The translations under genes and the position numbers were made by a program. This document shows positions 33,033 to 52,564 of a DNA stretch of 58,646 nucleotides, piece after piece. Below the pieces are notes generated by a model, which had not been told where the DNA came from, did no database searches, and was given only the letters and a program-made list of their open reading frames with translations. The DNA comes from Syntrophobacteraceae bacterium. GTDB lineage: Bacteria; Desulfobacterota; Syntrophobacteria; Syntrophobacterales; Syntrophobacteraceae. Positions within the stretch are counted from its first letter, which is position 1; each line of letters starts with the position of its first letter. Location: the NCBI GenBank assembly GCA_031292215.1, contig JARLHO010000007.1, positions 1 to 58,646 on the forward strand, read 5' to 3'.

Positions 33033-36084
<3,052 letters not shown>

Positions 36085-38583
36085 ATGAAAAAAAAGCTTT
36101 CCTTGAAACCAAAACTGATTCTGACCTGCCTTTGTCTTACCATCTTGCCTGCAATAGTCGTGGGCGCTTTTGGACTCAACCAACTGCGTTCCTACTCCAA
36201 CGAAGCGGTCTCCGAGTCTTATAAGACATTGGGCGAGGAGTGCGGGCAAACGCTCATTAGCGGCGTGGGATCGGATCGGGAAGTTATCAAAGACTTCATT
36301 AATCGTGCGCAAAGCGATGCGAAGATACTTGCCGGCTCGACCGATATGGTGGGCTACGTTTCGGCTCTTGCGGGCAAAAACGAATTATTCAACGGTTTGG
36401 CGCAAAGGGAAGTTGTCCGCACTGTCAGTGGGATTCTTTCGAACTGCGAACTTGAACAGAAAATGATTCAAAGAACCCCTGCGTTAAAAGATCAGGCCAT
36501 GGCGGATCTGGTCGGAAATATCCTGAGCATCAAAATCGGTCGGACAGGGTACCCCTTCGTGATGGATTCCAAGGGTAATCTTTTGGTTCACCCCGAAGGA
36601 AAGCTCATTGGCAAAAATACCATAACAGACCTCCATTTAACCGCTTTTAAAGATATTTTGGCCGCCAGGAAAGCGGGCGTAACGAAAATGCTGTCGTATT
36701 CCTTCGAAGGCCGCGATAAGTTTCTCTTTTACAGTTATTTTCCCGATTGGGACTGGATTGTTTGCGGCAGCGGCTACTGGGATGAGCTCTCTACAGAGGC
36801 CACAAAGGCTTCTTTTGCCCTTCTAAAAGATGAATTCAAAACGCTTTACCTGGGTTCTTTCCTGCCAATAGAGGGAAAGTCCGAACCCGTTTATAACCAA
36901 ATCCGCTACATCGACGATAAGGGCTCCGAGATCGTAAACCTCAAAGACGGGCAGTTCAGCAAGATCCTTGTTTCCAAGGCCAACCAGCCATGGTTTAAGA
37001 AGTGTTTACAACTCAAGCCCGGAGAGCTGAGTAACTCCGGTGCGGTCATCGCCGAAAATACCGGTATGGCTGAAATGCGCCTTTGCTCGCCTGTCTATTT
37101 TCATGGTTCCTTAAAAGGCGTGGTCGTCTTCAACCTGGATTGGAAACTGGCCTGGAAGTTACTAAAAGGCCATGTTTACGGCAAAACGGGCTATGCGTAT
37201 ATCCTAAACCGGAAAGGTATTTTGATCTCTCACCCCAAATACGATCTCACCAGGCCGGTAAACCTGGGGGATCCTAAATTCGGAGAAATATCAGCCATTG
37301 TAAGAGATAAGATGCTCAAAGGTGAACGGGGTATCTCTCGTTATACTTTTGAAGGAATCGATAAATTTGTCGCCTTTATGCCTTTAAAAATCAACGGCCT
37401 GCTATACAGTATAGCCGCAACCGGCCCGACAAACGAATTTCTGGCAGCCGCCAACACCCTGAAGGCCGATGCCGGAAAACGGGCATCGAGGGCCGCTCTG
37501 GGGATCGTTTTGGCAAGCCTTGCCATGATGATCATAGGCTGCACCATCGGGATAATTGTAAGCAGGGGCATCTGTCGCCCCGTCACCCGGGTCATTAACG
37601 GTCTTCTGGATGCGTCCGGGGAAATTTATTCGGCCTCGAGTCAAATTTCGTCATCTAGCCAGCAACTTGCCGATGGCGCCTCCGAACAGGCCGCAGCTAT
37701 CGAGCAAACCTCCTCCTCGCTGGAAGAGATGGCTTCGATGACCACGCAGAACGCCGAGAATGCGCAGAGTGTGGATTCACTAAGGGGAAAGGTCGGCGAT
37801 ATGTTGGCAGAGGCGGATAGCTCCATGGCCAACCTCGCGCAAGCCATAAACGAAATCTCGGCAGCCGGCGCCGAGACGCAAAAAATCATCAAAACAATTG
37901 ATGAGATCGCTTTTCAGACCAACCTTCTCGCTCTTAACGCCGCAGTTGAGGCTGCCCGGGCAGGTGAGGCCGGGGCGGGATTCGCCGTGGTGGCCGATGA
38001 GGTGCGAAACCTCGCCATGCGCGCCGCCGAAGCGGCAAAGACCACGACCGCGCTAATCGAAGGAACGTCCCGGCAAATACAGCGAGGCGCCGGACTGGCC
38101 GACAAAACCTCCCGGGCCTTTGGCACAGCCATCGCCTCATCAAAGAAGATGGGCGAACTCATTGCCGAGATCACCTCAGCAACCCGGGAACAGGCCAGGG
38201 GAATCGAACAGGTAAATAAGGCCATGTCGGATTTGGATAAGGTTGTCCAACAAAACGCGGCGACCGCCGAGCAATCGGCCGGCGCCTCCGAAGAAATGAA
38301 TGGTCAGTCTTCACGGATGGAAACGATCGTTCGCGGTCTTGTCACGATGATTGGCGGGAGCGCCGCGGAGCGCGTAGGTGGCCAGGGCGAGCACTCGCTT
38401 CCGGAACGCAAAAGTAATGGCTCAGCACTTGCCGGAGCTCGAAATCCCGCAACGAGCGCCGTATACACCGGCAATGGGAACAGCCACGTGAGGGCTGCGA
38501 AGTTCTCCGATGTCGGGAGGAATTCGCAGGAGGTGCGTCCCGACAAAGTCATTCCGTTTCAAGATAATCCCGGGGATTTTTGA
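36085..38583 (+). CDS. Methyl-accepting chemotaxis protein with large dCache-like sensor
   Basis: 832 residues from ATG 36085 (AGGAGG 10 nt upstream). Layout: membrane segment near 12-32, a periplasmic double-PAS (Cache) sensor of about 430 residues with two similar halves ([20 protein letters not shown] and [20 protein letters not shown]), and a second membrane segment near 470-495. Then come a short HAMP-like linker, methylation helices and the signalling hairpin tip at about 605-645 ([20 protein letters not shown] then [19 protein letters not shown]). The C-terminal tail ends [10 protein letters not shown]. It probably senses a small organic ligand and signals to CheA/CheW. Confidence 0.92.
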
Positions 38584-44606: not shown

Positions 44607-44640
44607 CGGTTAACGGACCTTGGGGACACGAGAGACAAGA

Positions 44641-45600
44641 ATGAAGAAGCGGATATCTTTTTCAGGTTTAATTTTATTTATAACTTTTTTTGCCGCATTT
44701 TTTCTGTCTTCCTGCGCGACCGGGCCGACTGCCGATGAGCTTCGAACTAAGGAGCTGTTTAACCGGGCCGAGAAAAAGTGGTGGCGTTTAGCCGGCCTCG
44801 CAAAAATGGCGATATCGGTCGATGGCGATTCGATTGTCTACCTGGAAGGCGGTAAGGGCGAGACGGTGGTGCTCCTGCACGGCTTTGCCGACAGCAAAGA
44901 CGCCTGGGTGGATTTCGCAAAACCCCTTACCCGGAGTTACCACGTCGTCATCCCCGATCTGCCGGGTTTTGGCGAGAGCACCAAACGGCTCTATGAAAAT
45001 TACAACATTGACCGCCAGGTGGGGCGACTCGATAGATTTGTCGAGGCTTTGGGGCAAAAAAGGTTTCATCTGGCCGGCAACTCCATGGGGGGCGCGATTG
45101 CCGCGGTCTATGCCGCTAGATTTCCACGGAAAGTAATTACTCTAGCCCTTCTGGACCCGATGGGCGTCGTGGCGCTAAAGATCCCCCCGAGGGTGATCGA
45201 GACCACCGGTGACTACGAAAAGATGCTTCCTCATCTTTTCTTTCGTACCCCCCATTTGCCCGAACCCTTCAGAAAGACGATGACTAAGGAATCTTTCGAG
45301 GAGGCGATGGTGGCAAGGTTTAAGGCCGCAAGGCGCTACAACGAAATAATCTGGCTCGATTTGGCCAGGGAGGATTTAAGCCTTGGGTCATTCCTTCCCG
45401 CTATTAAGGCGCCGGTATTAATTGTCTGGGGGGATCACGACGGGATTTTCGACGTGTCCGGCGCCTCAATTCTCGCGAAGGGCTTAAAAGACCACAGGAC
45501 GGTCATTCTAGAGGATACCGGCCATCTGCCCATGACTGAAAAACCGGCGCAAACGGCGGCGGCCTACGGCAATTTCCTGCAGAGTCGCCAGGGGATGTAG
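44641..45600 (+). CDS. Alpha/beta-hydrolase lipoprotein
   Basis: 319 residues from ATG 44641. The signal sequence ends in lipobox LSSC, so it should be lipid-anchored facing the periplasm. The hydrolase core shows the oxyanion region VVLLHGFADSKDAW, nucleophile elbow GNSMGG (Ser), catalytic acid in VIVWGDHDGIFD and histidine in EDTGHLPMTEKP. This is the usual order for esterase or haloalkane/epoxide-type hydrolases. Its stop codon lies 48 bp before the truncated oxidoreductase copy. Confidence 0.85.
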   Translation: MKKRISFSGLILFITFFAAFFLSSCATGPTADELRTKELFNRAEKKWWRLAGLAKMAISVDGDSIVYLEGGKGETVVLLHGFADSKDAWVDFAKPLTRSYHVVIPDLPGFGESTKRLYENYNIDRQVGRLDRFVEALGQKRFHLAGNSMGGAIAAVYAARFPRKVITLALLDPMGVVALKIPPRVIETTGDYEKMLPHLFFRTPHLPEPFRKTMTKESFEEAMVARFKAARRYNEIIWLDLAREDLSLGSFLPAIKAPVLIVWGDHDGIFDVSGASILAKGLKDHRTVILEDTGHLPMTEKPAQTAAAYGNFLQSRQGM

Positions 45601-45648
45601 CTTGGCCGGGACAGATTGGTTTTACTGAAAATGGCGGAGAACGAAAAG

Positions 45649-46275
45649 ATGAAGGAAATACGCAAAACCGCACGTGAGCTGATGACCGGTTTCTGCCGGG
45701 TCTGTCCGGTGTGCAACGGCAAGGCGCGCGCCGGGGAGGTGCCCGGCATGGGGGGCCTTGGGACCGGAGCGTCTTTTAGGGCTAACGTAGAGGCCCTGAG
45801 CCGCGACACCTTTAATATGCGTTTGGTGCGCGACATCACAGAGCCCGACACAGAAGTCGAGTTGCTCGGCATGAAAATGTCTATGCCCGTATTGGCCGCG
45901 CCCATCGGAGGGGTATCGTTTAACATGGGCGGAAAGCGCACGGAGCAGGAATACATCGCGGCGATCATCGACGGCTGTTGGAACGGCCCAACTCTGCGAT
46001 AGCTGGATAGCGCCAGAGCGCTAAAGAATTGATCATCGGCATGGGCATCGACTCCGCCGCGCTTAACACCCTGCGTAAGATGGGCGGCCGCGTTTCGTCA
46101 TAGCCGTCAGGAAAGCTTCGCGAGATCATCACAAGCACGGGCGTCAAATCTTCCACTATAAATTTTGGGCCAAAGATTTGGTTGGGGGCTCGCGTCTCAT
46201 TGGCAGCCACGCTTGCCGCGTAGGACGTCTACGGGAAGGGGTGCCTGGCTCTGTGATGATGGCGCGAGATTTCAT
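45649..46275 (+). pseudogene. Truncated, decayed copy of the alpha-hydroxy-acid oxidoreductase gene
   Basis: The first 108 codons match the intact gene at 49374 almost line for line (MKEIRKTARELM, CRVCPVCNG, GVPGMGG-type, GGVSFNMGG), ending in-frame at 46002 after IAAIIDGCW. Beyond that, only fragments are readable: a block at about 46027-46130 matches GMDIDAAGLITLRKMGRPVS and KLREIIT, after a deletion of about 130 bp, then divergence to about 46275. The upstream 30 bp (tggttttac-gaaaat-gcggagaac) also match. The fourth N-terminal cysteine is arginine here. Confidence 0.85.
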
Positions 46276-46346
46276 AATTGGCCTGGGCCTTCTATTCTGT
46301 TAGTCTTTACTTGTGACGTTCAAAAAAAACGAGAATTGACAAAAGA

Positions 46347-46751
46347 ATGGACAACCTGTCGCCCGAACAGCGTAGCATGCAAATGAGCTTGGTTCGATCC
46401 AAGGATACGAAGCCCGAACTTCGAGTACGGAGCCTTGTACACGGGCTTGGATATCGCTACCGTCTTCATAGAGTCGAGCTGCCCGGCAAACCGGACCTCG
46501 TATTCCCATCCAAGAGGAAGATCATATTCGTGCATGGATGCTTTTGGCACGGGCACGATTGCCGTTTAGGCAGAATGCCGAAATCAAGGATTGAGTATTG
46601 GCAATTCAAAATTGCCAATAACCGGGTGCGCGACAGAAATGTTGTAAAATGCTTGCATGAAATGGGATGGCAATGTCTTGCCATATGGGAGTGCGAATTA
46701 CGCGACCATATGAAATTGGCGGAGCGGATTAGGAAGTTTTTGGAGTCGTAG
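46347..46751 (+). CDS. vsr: Very short patch repair (Vsr) endonuclease
   Basis: A 134-residue protein that nicks next to T:G mismatches arising from deamination of 5-methylcytosine. The family residues are present: D50 in PGKPDLVF, histidines 63, 68 and 70 in VHGCFWHGHDC, and the opening SPEQRSMQMSLVRSKDTKPE that binds DNA. It accompanies the cytosine-C5 methyltransferase of the same island, as expected for a system that protects its modified sites from mutation. Confidence 0.92.
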   Translation: MDNLSPEQRSMQMSLVRSKDTKPELRVRSLVHGLGYRYRLHRVELPGKPDLVFPSKRKIIFVHGCFWHGHDCRLGRMPKSRIEYWQFKIANNRVRDRNVVKCLHEMGWQCLAIWECELRDHMKLAERIRKFLES

Positions 46752-46775
46752 CGACATAGAGGCAAATGATTGACG

Positions 46776-47702
46776 ATGAGGCCGGAAGAGTTTGAAAAGA
46801 TTCTGGATGCGCTAGCTTCTAAATTGACGAATGAAGTTCGGGTTGACTCATCGCTCCGCGCCCCCAGCCATTTTGAGACAAGGGTGCGCACTGACCTGCA
46901 GGCGTTGCTAGTGGCTGAAGGTGTAACCGCTGAACTTAACTCACGCCCGCAAGTATTTCCTGACATCGTTTTTGAGCAGTTCGGCATTGAGGTTAAGTTT
47001 ACCGATTCTGATTCCTGGCGAAGTATAGCGAACAGCGTCTTCGAGGGAACCCGCGATGCCAAGGTCGAGCATATCTACCTCTTATTCGGAAAAATCGGTG
47101 GTACGCCGGCAGTGCGTTGGAATAAGTACGAAGACTGCGTGATGCACGTCAGGACATCTCACGTGCCCCGATTTGAGGTTGAAATCGGAGCCAAGGAGCC
47201 GCTTTTCGCCAAATTTGGCATTACGTATGAAGAATTTAGAAATCTTTCAATTACAGGGAAAATGGTTCACATCCGAAGCTACGCAAGAGCCCGGCTTAAG
47301 CCGGGTGACCGGCTCTGGTGGTTGGAGGATAAGCCTGAATCCGCACAGCAGCACTCTCTTTCGCTGGAGGTTCGCCTTTACATGGGACTAAGTCAAGACG
47401 AGAAGCGCAGGCTTCGAGCTGAGGCGGCTCTTCTGTGTCCACAAGTGGTTAAGTCGCCAAGGTCGAAAAGGAAATATGACGATGCCGCAATGTACCTTCT
47501 CACCTACCGTGGCGTTTTATGTTCCCAGGCGAGAGACCTGTTTACAGCCGGGAGTGTTGCGATGCGGGCTGACAAAACACGGGGTGGCAACTATATGGCT
47601 CGTTCCCTTCAGGATATCGAGGCCGAAATGAGAATGGCTGTCGAGGAGCTTGAGGACGCCCTCTTTGTCGAATATTGGGGCTTTACGGCGCCAGCCGGCT
47701 AG
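46776..47702 (+). CDS. Putative type II restriction endonuclease (PD-(D/E)XK)
   Basis: 308 residues from ATG 46776 (a TTG 6 bp upstream is weaker). The catalytic core reads PDIVFEQFGIEVK, with D63, E72 and K74 in D-x8-E-x-K spacing. No other family is obvious. The gene sits 24 bp after vsr and points towards the cytosine methyltransferase gene, which is the usual R-M-vsr cluster. Some type II enzymes of the NgoBV/NlaIV kind share such arrangements; the recognition sequence cannot be read here. Confidence 0.75.
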   Translation: MRPEEFEKILDALASKLTNEVRVDSSLRAPSHFETRVRTDLQALLVAEGVTAELNSRPQVFPDIVFEQFGIEVKFTDSDSWRSIANSVFEGTRDAKVEHIYLLFGKIGGTPAVRWNKYEDCVMHVRTSHVPRFEVEIGAKEPLFAKFGITYEEFRNLSITGKMVHIRSYARARLKPGDRLWWLEDKPESAQQHSLSLEVRLYMGLSQDEKRRLRAEAALLCPQVVKSPRSKRKYDDAAMYLLTYRGVLCSQARDLFTAGSVAMRADKTRGGNYMARSLQDIEAEMRMAVEELEDALFVEYWGFTAPAG

Positions 47703-47769
47703 CGGATAAATAAGTGGTTAGAGCTAGCCGACCAATACGCTACCGGCTGGAGGCCTTCGGAGGTACTCT

Positions 47770-48798
47770 TCAGGCAGTAGCTTGATTCGGTGTTATCGCG
47801 CAATCATCCGCCCTATTATGTAAAAATTTGCTTATTTGTAGAGCGACGTGCCAAGCGAGGACAGGCGGCACAGCATTACCGACTTGCCTCTCTGTTTCCC
47901 GCAGCATGGAATCAAAGATGAAACTATCTGGAAAAGACTGTACTCGCGCCGCTTCGCGCATTGACATGCGCCGTTTAAGGCGATAATGCCACTGAATGTT
48001 TCCATGACATTCAGCTCTGATGGTATAACCAGGGCGGTCGGCCCTTAGAATTCGGTCTCCCTGCTCCGGACTCTTGTTCGCGCGGCTCCAGATGTGATTG
48101 AATCCTGGATTTTCATCCATACTTTCCAAATCCTCTATAGCCTCTTTAACGGTCATCCAGTCCTCCGTGGCGCGTTCTGTCGGCGGCGGAACGAACGGCT
48201 TAACTTTGTATGAAGTGCCCACAATGAAAACACGGTGCCGAGTTTGAGGTACGCTATAGTCAGCGGCTTGGTACGGCTCACATGAGAGTCTGTACCCTAA
48301 TTCTCCAAAGTCGGCCATGACCTGTTGCAGCGAGGCGGCGTTGCATGACATTAAGAGGCTGCCCACGTTTTCGGCTACAAACACTGAAGGCTTTGTCCGC
48401 TCAATCGCCTGTACCATTGCTCGGTAGAGTCCGCTCCGCTTTCCATTCACACCGGCGCGCTTGCCGTTCAGCGAAATATCTTGGCATGGAAAGCCGCCGA
48501 TCAAGACGTCAGCCGTTCCAGGGAGCGTATCGAGGGCATCCCATACGTCACGGCAAAGGATGTCTTCTCCTATGTTTCTTCGATAGGTTGCGCACGCCTT
48601 GGGATTATGTTCATTGGCCCAAATAATCCGAAAAGGCAGTTTGCCGTAGTAGCGTCCGAAGACCTCAAATCCACCGATGAAGCCTAGATCCATGCCTCCG
48701 CAACCCGAGAACATTGAGACAACAGAAAACTCCTGCGATGAATGCGGTAGGCACCCCATTGTGCTGATGTGTTCTATTTTTGCATAGTCTCTATCCAT
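47770..48798 (-). CDS. DNA (cytosine-5-)-methyltransferase, type II
   Basis: 342 residues with the ordered C5-MTase motifs: I SMFSGCGGMDLGF; IV IGGFPCQDIS, whose catalytic cysteine is C105; VI VAENVGS at about 142-148; VIII QTRHRVFIVG; and X RQVGNAVPP near the end. It should methylate the island's cognate site and protect it from the endonuclease. ATG 48798 has a strong GGAGGAG upstream. It is transcribed convergently with the endonuclease gene. Confidence 0.93.
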   Translation of the reverse strand: MDRDYAKIEHISTMGCLPHSSQEFSVVSMFSGCGGMDLGFIGGFEVFGRYYGKLPFRIIWANEHNPKACATYRRNIGEDILCRDVWDALDTLPGTADVLIGGFPCQDISLNGKRAGVNGKRSGLYRAMVQAIERTKPSVFVAENVGSLLMSCNAASLQQVMADFGELGYRLSCEPYQAADYSVPQTRHRVFIVGTSYKVKPFVPPPTERATEDWMTVKEAIEDLESMDENPGFNHIWSRANKSPEQGDRILRADRPGYTIRAECHGNIQWHYRLKRRMSMREAARVQSFPDSFIFDSMLRETERQVGNAVPPVLAWHVALQISKFLHNRADDCAITPNQATA

Positions 48799-49373
48799 CC
48801 GACTCCTCCCCGCGTTGCGTAGTGTACACTGAACCCCTACCTCATGGCAAGCCGGCGCGGCGAGGACTCTTCAACTAAAATGAGCTAAGCCGACCTTCGC
48901 GAGACTATAGGGAAAATAGGCGCGAGCGACGCTCCACTGCCAGATGGCTTTTCTCTTGGGACACCTCAATTAGTGGAGCTATATTACTACTGTGAGAAGG
49001 TTTAGCGGCGCTTGCACGCCTCCCTCGCGCCCGTTGAATTCCTCATCCTTGTAGCCGATGTCCCTTTAAAGAGACTCTTTGGATTCTTGCCCGACGGCAA
49101 GCGCAGGGGATAATATCATCCCGGGTGTAAACATAGCATAATGGCATAGCTTGATCCTCCGGGGCAGGTATTTTTCCTTGCCCAGCGATCTGGTTCTCCC
49201 CTTTGTGAAAGCCTGCCTCAGCGGCCAACATTCCAGACTTGAATTCTTCCGTCTCAAGTTCCATTCTGATCTAGGATGCGCATGACTCGAAATGATCGCT
49301 GGAAGCCGCTAAAGGGCATCCAGGACATGGCCTGGACATAGTGGTTTTACCGAAAATAGCGGAGAACGAACAG
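48799..49373. other. Intergenic region between methyltransferase and oxidoreductase genes
   Basis: 575 bp upstream of both genes (divergent). No gene is supported: a minus-strand frame of 73 codons at 49043-49264 lacks a ribosome site and matches nothing I know. The last 40 bp resemble the sequence upstream of the truncated copy at 45.6 kb, so the duplicated segment includes some 5' flank. Confidence 0.5.
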
Positions 49374-50390
49374 ATGAAGGAAATACGTAAAACCGCTCGT
49401 GAGCTGATGGCCGGTTTTTGCCGGGTCTGTCCGGTGTGCAACGGCAGGGCGTGCGCCGGGGAAGTGCCCGGCATGGGGGGCCTTGGGACCGGAGCGTCTT
49501 TTAGGGCTAACGTAGACGCCCTTGCCCGCTACACCTTCAACATGCGTTTGGTGCACGACATCACCGAACCCGAGACCGCAGTCGAGTTGCTGGGCATGAA
49601 AATGTCTCTGCCCGTTTTGGCCGCGCCCATCGGAGGGGTATCGTTTAACATGGGCGGAAGGCGCACGGAGCAGGAATACATCGCGGCGATCGTCGACGGC
49701 TGCAAAAGTAGCGGCATCATAGGATGTACCGGAGACGGGGTCCCGCCGATTATCTGCGAGGCGGCTTTTGCGGCCATAGCCGCGGCGGGCGGCCACGGCA
49801 TCCCGTTTATCAAGCCCTGGGAGGACGCCGAACTCTACGATAAGCTGGATAAGGCCGGAGCTACCGGAGCAAAGGTTATCGGAATGGATATCGATGCGGC
49901 CGGGCTCATCACTTTGCGCAAGATGGGGCGCCCGGTTTCACCCAAGCCGCTCGAAAAGCTTCGTGAGATCATCACCCGGACGGGCAAAAAATTTATCCTG
50001 AAGGGAATCATGACCGCAGAAGACGCAAGACTCGCCCACCGGGCGGGCGCCCACGCCATCGTAGTCTCAAACCATGGCGGGCGGGTTTTGGATCACACCC
50101 CGGGAACTGCGGAGGTACTCCCAAAAATCGCCGAGGAAATGAAGGGTAAAGTTGACATCATCGTCGATGGGGGAATCCGCTCAGGGGGCGACGTGCTAAA
50201 GATGCTCGCCCTCGGAGCAGATGCGGTCATGATCGGACGCCCCTTTAGCCTCGCCGCGGTGGGCGGATTGACAGAAGGGGTCGTTACGTACATCGACTCC
50301 ATCCGAACGGAGCTAATGCAGGCCATGGTCATGACCGGGACCCGGTCGGTTACGCTTTTGCCCGCCGATCTTCTGTACAGGAACCGATAG
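49374..50390 (+). CDS. FMN-dependent alpha-hydroxy-acid oxidoreductase
   Basis: 338 residues of the lactate/glycolate oxidase superfamily, oxidising a 2-hydroxy acid through FMN. Flavin-barrel features are VLAAPIGGVSFNMG, ILKGIMTAEDA (conserved lysine), the SNHGGRVLD loop with the catalytic histidine and arginine, and VDGGIRSGGDVLKMLALGAD with IGRP. An N-terminal cysteine motif C16-x2-C19-x2-C22-x4-C27 is unusual for the superfamily and could bind metal or be redox-active. ATG 49374 (GGAG 10 nt upstream) is chosen over GTG 49341. Its truncated copy is at 45.6 kb. Confidence 0.82.
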   Translation: MKEIRKTARELMAGFCRVCPVCNGRACAGEVPGMGGLGTGASFRANVDALARYTFNMRLVHDITEPETAVELLGMKMSLPVLAAPIGGVSFNMGGRRTEQEYIAAIVDGCKSSGIIGCTGDGVPPIICEAAFAAIAAAGGHGIPFIKPWEDAELYDKLDKAGATGAKVIGMDIDAAGLITLRKMGRPVSPKPLEKLREIITRTGKKFILKGIMTAEDARLAHRAGAHAIVVSNHGGRVLDHTPGTAEVLPKIAEEMKGKVDIIVDGGIRSGGDVLKMLALGADAVMIGRPFSLAAVGGLTEGVVTYIDSIRTELMQAMVMTGTRSVTLLPADLLYRNR

Positions 50391-50689: not shown

Positions 50690-51478
50690 GTGAACAAATC
50701 CTTTAATACCTTGGAAAAGGTCATGGATGTCCTCTCCATGTTCGACCTCGAACACCAGGAGATGTCTGCGCAGGAAATCGCCCAAGGGGTCGCCATGCCC
50801 CTTAGCACCACGTACAGGTACCTCCAGGCTTTTCTCAAAAGGGGAATACTCTCACGCGACGAGGCGACCGGCAGGTTTTCCCTGGGCCTTGCAGTCGCAA
50901 GGCTGGGTCTGCTGGCCTGCGAGAAAATTTCGGTCATAGGCGTTTGCCATCCGTATTTGAAACCTTTGGCCGAGAGCTCTTGCGAAACCGCGGCGCTGAC
51001 TGTTCTAGACGGCCTGGGGCTTGTCTATGTCGATGTCGTCGAAGGCCCCCGGTCGGTAAAGTTTTCGGTGGGCAGGGGGAGCGCTTTGCCGTTGTATGCG
51101 GGGTCTCCCGGAAAAGCGGTCCTCGCGTTCAAGGACCAGGCTTTCATCGACAAAGTGATACAGACCACGCGCCTTGCAAAGCTTGGCAAAAATACTATCA
51201 CCGAACCCGAAAGGCTCCGTGCGGAACTGGCCGGCATCAGGCGCCTGGGATTTAGCGAGTCCGATTCCGAATTCGATCTGGGGGTCGCATCGATCGCCGC
51301 CCCTATTTTCGACCACCGGGGAGAGGTTATCGCCTCCTTATCGGTTGCGGGTCCAACGGATAGAGTCATACAAAGCAAACCGAAACTGATCGACCTGGTG
51401 TTGGACGCGGCCCGGTCGATTTCAACGCAACTCGGATACGGCAAGAACTGGAAATCGCGCTCGATGGGGACCTCTTAG
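50690..51478 (+). CDS. IclR-family transcriptional regulator
   Basis: 262 residues. The N-terminal winged helix-turn-helix (about 8-62) contains MSAQEIAQGVAMPLSTTYRYLQAFLKRG. The C-terminal effector-binding GAF-like domain contains the family landmarks RGSALPLYAGSPGKAVLAF, ELAGIRRLGFSESDSEFD and VASIAAPIFDHRGEVIASLS. Start GTG has GGGAGG 9 nt upstream. It probably controls the adjacent acyl-CoA-ligase/reductase block through the palindrome upstream; the effector is unknown. Confidence 0.9.
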   Translation: MNKSFNTLEKVMDVLSMFDLEHQEMSAQEIAQGVAMPLSTTYRYLQAFLKRGILSRDEATGRFSLGLAVARLGLLACEKISVIGVCHPYLKPLAESSCETAALTVLDGLGLVYVDVVEGPRSVKFSVGRGSALPLYAGSPGKAVLAFKDQAFIDKVIQTTRLAKLGKNTITEPERLRAELAGIRRLGFSESDSEFDLGVASIAAPIFDHRGEVIASLSVAGPTDRVIQSKPKLIDLVLDAARSISTQLGYGKNWKSRSMGTS

Positions 51479-51628
51479 ATTTTCCACGCAGATTCTCCAC
51501 CTCCTATGTCTTTTTTTCGTGTGCTGCCGGTGTTTCGAGCAGGTAGTCAGTCTGTTTACAATGGATAAAAAGCTTTTTGCCCCCAAGCGTGCAAGGGGGG
51601 CAAACCAAAACGAGAGGCGGTGTGCGTT

Positions 51629-52564
51629 ATGGCTAATCCTTTAGTTGCAATTATCGGGGTCGGCGCCACGGGGACCGTTTTAGCCGCGTCCCTTCTGGGG
51701 CAGAACCCGGAGACGATGCTCGTTGTGCGAAGAGCGGAGCAACGGGAGGAAATTAAAAAAAACGGGATCGGGATCACCGGGGAGATCAACTGCCACGCGC
51801 GGGTCAAAAATCTATTGGATAACGTTTCGCAGGTAAAGGAGCAAAAGCCCGATATCATTTTCATTTGCACAAAGACTTTTCACCTTGCGTCGGTTCTCGA
51901 TTCACTTACGGGTGTTGTGGGGCCGAAGACACGGATCGTTAGCGCCCACAACGGCCTGGGGACAGAAGATGTGGTCGGAGAAGTCTTCGGGGCGGAAAAA
52001 GCGTTGCGGATGTCTCTAAACTTCGGCGCTACCCTCACGGGGCTTTGCGCTGCGAAGGTTAATTTCTTCAATCGCCCCAACCACCTGGGGGCGCTGGTAT
52101 CGGAAAACCGCGAAATCGGCCTTCGGGTTGCGCGGCTTTTCTCCGAAGGGGGGCTGGATACCGAATATGTCGAGGACATAAAGCTAAACGTCTGGAAAAA
52201 GATGATCATGAAATGCACCATGGCCTCGATTTGCGCGGTAACCGACAAAACGATAAAAGAGGCCCTGGAGCTTCCGGCGACAAGGGAAATAGCGGACGGC
52301 TGCTTTGCCGAGGCCTTGGCGGTCGCCAAGGCCAAGGGATACGACCTCGGGGCGGATTACATGAAGCAGGCGCTTGCCTACCTGGAAAAAGTGGGCGTGC
52401 ACAAGGATTCGATGTGTGTCGATATCGCCAACAAAACGCAGACGGAAATCGATTTTCTGGGTGGTAAAGTCGTGGAATACGGAAGGGAAAAGGGAATACC
52501 CACGCCCCACTATATGACCATGGCAAATCTCGTAAGGGCCATGGAACACGACTACCTGCGCTGA
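51629..52564 (+). CDS. Ketopantoate reductase (ApbA/PanE)-family protein
   Basis: 311 residues from ATG 51629 (GTG 51620 possible). The Rossmann motif IIGVGATGTVLAASLL opens the protein. FICTKTFHLASVL, AHNGLG and the C-terminal KMIMKCTMASICAVTD helix pattern follow, with the conserved lysine. The family includes 2-dehydropantoate 2-reductase and related 2-hydroxy-acid dehydrogenases. Given the acyl-CoA context and the IclR regulator it may act on another keto acid, so I give no panE symbol. Confidence 0.8.
   Translation: MANPLVAIIGVGATGTVLAASLLGQNPETMLVVRRAEQREEIKKNGIGITGEINCHARVKNLLDNVSQVKEQKPDIIFICTKTFHLASVLDSLTGVVGPKTRIVSAHNGLGTEDVVGEVFGAEKALRMSLNFGATLTGLCAAKVNFFNRPNHLGALVSENREIGLRVARLFSEGGLDTEYVEDIKLNVWKKMIMKCTMASICAVTDKTIKEALELPATREIADGCFAEALAVAKAKGYDLGADYMKQALAYLEKVGVHKDSMCVDIANKTQTEIDFLGGKVVEYGREKGIPTPHYMTMANLVRAMEHDYLR

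Follow-up and report, generated by a model that had tools for sequence, protein, structure and literature searches.

Restriction-modification genes between an intact FMN-dependent dehydrogenase gene and a mosaic, decayed copy of it in a Syntrophobacteraceae bacterium

Genes at the locus and in relatives

The window, meaning the whole stretch of 58,646 nucleotides analyzed here (contig JARLHO010000007.1, Syntrophobacteraceae bacterium), carries the gene order UbiD-UbiA-orf-hydrolase-A-cassette-B-IclR-PanE, in which A (45603-46149) and B are copies, in direct orientation, of a gene for an FMN-dependent alpha-hydroxy-acid dehydrogenase (FMN_dh, PF01070). The first-pass annotation had placed restriction-modification (R-M) genes between two directly oriented copies of this gene, and a vsr gene, a type II endonuclease gene, and a C5 cytosine methylase gene are indeed located between A and B (Table 1).

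Table 1. Positions of the features of the locus in the window
Feature	Position	Strand	Basis
Alpha/beta hydrolase, left flank	44620..45600	+	PF00561
Copy A, B-like block: ~46 bp upstream and first 110 FMN_dh codons	45603..45977	+	PF01070, match to B
Copy A, internal block, degenerate (frame breaks, TAG)	45978..46149	+	Identity to B and G001
Left flank of cassette	46150..46346		
vsr, very short patch repair (T:G mismatch) endonuclease	46347-46751	+	TIGR00632 6e-45, PF03852
Type II restriction endonuclease, PD-(D/E)XK core	46770-47702	+	PADLOC REase_II 1e-109, alignments
C5 cytosine methyltransferase, HaeIII-like	47770-48798	-	PF00145, TIGR00675, M.HaeIII 4e-31
Right flank of cassette	48799..49214		
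Ancestral upstream region of copy B	49215..49373	+	Alignment to G001 FMN_dh upstream
Copy B, intact FMN-dependent alpha-hydroxy-acid dehydrogenase	49374-50390	+	PF01070 4.5e-64
IclR regulator and PanE-like reductase, right-hand neighbors	50690..52564	+	

For copy B, the ATG at 49374, as in the relatives, was taken as the start in place of the GTG at 49341 given in the list of open reading frames. The protein is 78-84% identical to its orthologues in four relatives of the same genus (G001, G005, G009, and G010), each of which has a single close FMN_dh and no adjacent R-M genes. In G001, the nearest relative of B, the gene sits at another location, yet the approximately 150 bp upstream of it match those upstream of B, with an alignment score of 38.5 as compared with a maximum of 1.5 for shuffled sequences; most of this region is absent from copy A. 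Copy B is best read as the working native gene, with its old upstream region retained. An open reading frame that by eye resembles a DUF5615/PIN-like toxin lies immediately 5' of the FMN_dh gene of G001 (L055 13278-13637).

In G009 and G010, which have a single FMN_dh and lack R-M genes there, the order is UbiD-UbiA-ThiE-ThiM-chemotaxis genes-FMN_dh-PanE; the association of PanE with FMN_dh is conserved in relatives, with two extra genes separating them in G010. The interval between UbiA and PanE is the native position of FMN_dh. The order in G007 is the same, with FMN_dh reduced to an N-terminal remnant that lies between PanE and a chemotaxis gene (L102 8417-8566; G007:C152:25416-25565), which indicates that FMN_dh decays independently elsewhere in the genus. 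The hydrolase of the window is complete to its C terminus when aligned to the G005 homologue, and the homology of copy A begins 3 bp past its stop codon. An exact empty site was not found among the genus relatives because the hydrolase junction is absent from every one of them, and the single FMN_dh of G009 and G010 has different immediate flanks. An intact second FMN_dh copy is likewise present in no relative, so an additional copy would be either an old paralogue that was lost elsewhere or one that was gained only here, which counts against the reading favored below.

The restriction-modification cassette

The vsr frame is open and its product scores 152 bits against the Vsr profile, for which the curated cut-off is 98; the methylase frame is also open and encodes all of the main motifs, the catalytic motifs among them. 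At a single short C5 target methylated by such an enzyme, deamination would give T:G mismatches, which Vsr would correct. Avoidance of palindromic tetramers, examined for hints of the target site, gave no clear signal relative to the relatives (GGCC at 0.89 of expected).

The endonuclease gene is not intact. The catalytic residues are retained (PD at 64-65 and EVK at 74-76), but an in-frame TAG at 47700-47702 removes the C terminus, and the approximately 25 in-frame codons beyond it (stop and tail together spanning 47700-47777) still match a C-terminal sequence that is conserved in all six relatives compared. This copy is therefore truncated, apparently as a recent event, and restriction may be weakened or lost. 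A reading of TAG as a sense codon was considered and rejected; TAG terminates copy B, the IclR gene, the hydrolase gene, and other genes. The endonuclease sequence had no match among solved structures, and a structure model, reliable for about residues 1-180 only, gave a weak match to an EcoRV-like fold.

Searches around the cassette were negative. The left flank had no match in the same genome or in the corresponding loci of relatives, the right flank had no convincing match in the same genome or the genus, and the lost 3' part of copy A had no match beyond the cassette, in 48800-49345. No terminal inverted or short direct repeats were found at the cassette ends, past one 9-mer attributable to chance.

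Relatives of the endonuclease were found in 4 of the 395 genomes sampled from the phylum, this genome included, and on plasmids and in other phyla at 54-63% identity. The closer relatives, which occur alongside the methylase and in some cases vsr, come from uncultured proteobacteria, Candidatus Viridilinea, and Loktanella and from Klebsiella and Pelobacter plasmids. The patchy presence in other phyla and on plasmids indicates that the cassette was acquired horizontally, and in this respect the earlier view of the island as foreign is upheld. The third-position G+C content (GC3) of the cassette genes (0.53-0.59) is below that of most flanking genes (about 0.62-0.73) and of nearly all other window genes checked (0.62-0.75), the exception being 35947-38583 (0.58). 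About five further genes resembling C5 methylases occur elsewhere in the genome from which the window derives (contigs C92, C95, C114, C121, and C164). Another genome of the phylum, G416, has three loci (L064, L067, and L068) with decayed relatives of the endonuclease and methylase that contain several in-frame stops.

Structure and history of copy A

Copy A consists of two blocks. The 5' block matches 49328-49703 of copy B over 375 bp with 92% identity (E 6e-156), which is far above chance; the longest exact match is 53 bp, and the differences are scattered along the block. Residues that are invariant in all relatives are altered in it, C to R and H to R, as is expected of a pseudogene. After 45977, approximately 124 bp are missing, and homology to the gene interior then resumes in a block of 164 bp (about 45986-46149), at the right edge of which FMN_dh homology ends. 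The internal block is about 71-72% identical to B and 78-80% identical to G001. The first-pass annotation described a truncated 5' copy that shares its upstream flank with the intact gene. Copy A is indeed ruined, but it is a two-part ruin rather than a clean 5' truncation, given the deletion and the internal block with 72% identity beyond it; a common upstream flank is also present, but it extends over only about 46 bp (45603-45648), whereas B shares approximately 150 bp with G001.

The relationship of A to B differs between the two blocks. The tree of the 5' block places A and B as sisters (support 100/99) on a common stem of 0.094 changes per site, after which each diverged by 0.045-0.049; no comparable A+B stem is found in the tree of the internal block. 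At positions that distinguish B from G001, A agrees with B at 39 and with G001 at 13 in the 5' block, as opposed to 1 and 12, respectively, in the internal block (Fisher p=1.3e-5). Unlinking the branch lengths between the blocks changed lnL from -2153.0 to -2134.1, a gain of 18.9 for 10 extra parameters (likelihood ratio test, p about 4e-5). It should be noted that the short internal block provides 118 columns and that an A+B clade was not rejected for it by the AU test (p 0.17). Together, the site patterns and branch lengths indicate that copy A is a mosaic whose 5' and internal blocks have separate histories; the odd internal part may be that of A or that of B. On its right side the B-like block ends at the deletion point, and one event may therefore account for both.

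Origin of the arrangement and comparison with known systems

The reading favored here, with a moderate degree of confidence and as the simplest one that fits, is that a mobile R-M cassette came to lie between two copies of FMN_dh which its insertion did not create and of which A was partly homogenized and decayed. We infer the following order of events, with conversion as the mechanism. Copy A would have been a second FMN_dh copy, either a paralogue of older date or an acquisition from a related species, and its 5' end would have been overwritten with B sequence by gene conversion or by break repair that copied from B, at some time after divergence from the nearest known relative. Copy A would afterwards have lost its 3' end as well as approximately 124 bp and would have accumulated stops, and the cassette would have entered separately, perhaps replacing the 3' end of A. 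A related scenario, in which entry of the cassette broke FMN_dh and the break was repaired from the 5' end of the other copy, making insertion and one-sided conversion parts of a single event, is considered decidedly improbable.

The known alternative to a decayed second copy is a one-step insertion in which a target of approximately 375 bp (45603-45977 and 49328-49703) was duplicated on entry of the cassette. Direct repeats of that length do bracket the cassette, and there is precedent for long, variable duplications at R-M insertions, but this explanation is less well supported and is judged improbable. The repeats are 8% diverged, and both ends of the supposed insert contain sequence derived from FMN_dh, namely the internal block of A at one end and approximately 113 bp of the ancestral upstream region of B at the other; the latter argues against a one-step target duplication, which would not leave such sequence there. 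The patchwork of two histories in copy A likewise suggests that a one-step duplication caused by insertion of the island is probably not the origin. The proposal that the insertion itself made the duplication is not supported, since the blocks of A differ in history, the upstream region of B is kept inside the insert, and the 3' part of A is not found beyond the cassette. The first-pass annotation also suggested that the island might have arrived with its own copy of the 5' part of the target gene. In the form considered here, the cassette would have come on the DNA of a genus relative together with its own FMN_dh segment, recombination within FMN_dh leaving chimeric copies on both sides. Such an arrival, which we regard as somewhat unlikely, would fit a chimeric copy A with a switch point within the gene, an internal block with higher identity to G001 (80%) than to B (71%), and the difference between the upstream regions of A and B. 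However, a single crossover predicts the same donor-recipient relationship in both blocks, which in fact differ, and the donor itself would need to have been mosaic; furthermore, the cassette is known from no member of the genus (the endonuclease having been sampled phylum-wide), where only distant methyltransferases were found. The joining of the FMN_dh loci of two strains in a draft metagenome-type assembly has also to be weighed, as the window is one contig of an assembly of 177 contigs with an estimated contamination of 3.2%. Because the longest exact match between A and B is so short, with differences spread along the block, misassembly is unlikely, and the presence of UbiA and PanE, the anchors of the locus in relatives, on the two sides also speaks against it; overall, an artefact of this kind is considered very improbable.

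The arrangement is in itself fairly ordinary, consisting of imported R-M genes of a common kind at a rearranged spot beside a pseudogene, and it is another example of an R-M cassette at a host gene that has been rearranged. What the analysis adds is the evidence for two histories in the bracketing copies and for truncation of the endonuclease. The locus cautions against assuming that the repeats around an R-M island are target duplications; site patterns along the copies can reveal separate histories.

Insertions of R-M genes with long, variable target duplications, on the order of 100 bp, are described in PMC3031569 and PMC3874152, which cite Nobusato et al. 2000 and Furuta et al. 2010 for such cases. 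As in those cases, the R-M genes here lie between direct repeats of a host gene segment. In a target duplication, however, the repeats should abut the insert, whereas here FMN_dh-derived sequence is inside both ends, the repeats have diverged, and the left copy is mosaic. Among solved structures, the best match to the window methylase is to the M.HaeIII-type C5 methylases, which have the same motifs, at a similarity too low for transfer of the recognition site. The cassette most resembles those of the plasmids pINF177.2 of Klebsiella pneumoniae and pPRO2 of Pelobacter propionicus, in which a C5 methylase likewise adjoins an endonuclease of the same family (54-66% identity), and vsr is common to pINF177.2 and the window. 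It differs from both in lying on a chromosome-like contig, in having a truncated endonuclease, and in its arrangement, with vsr and the endonuclease gene followed by the methylase gene in reverse orientation.
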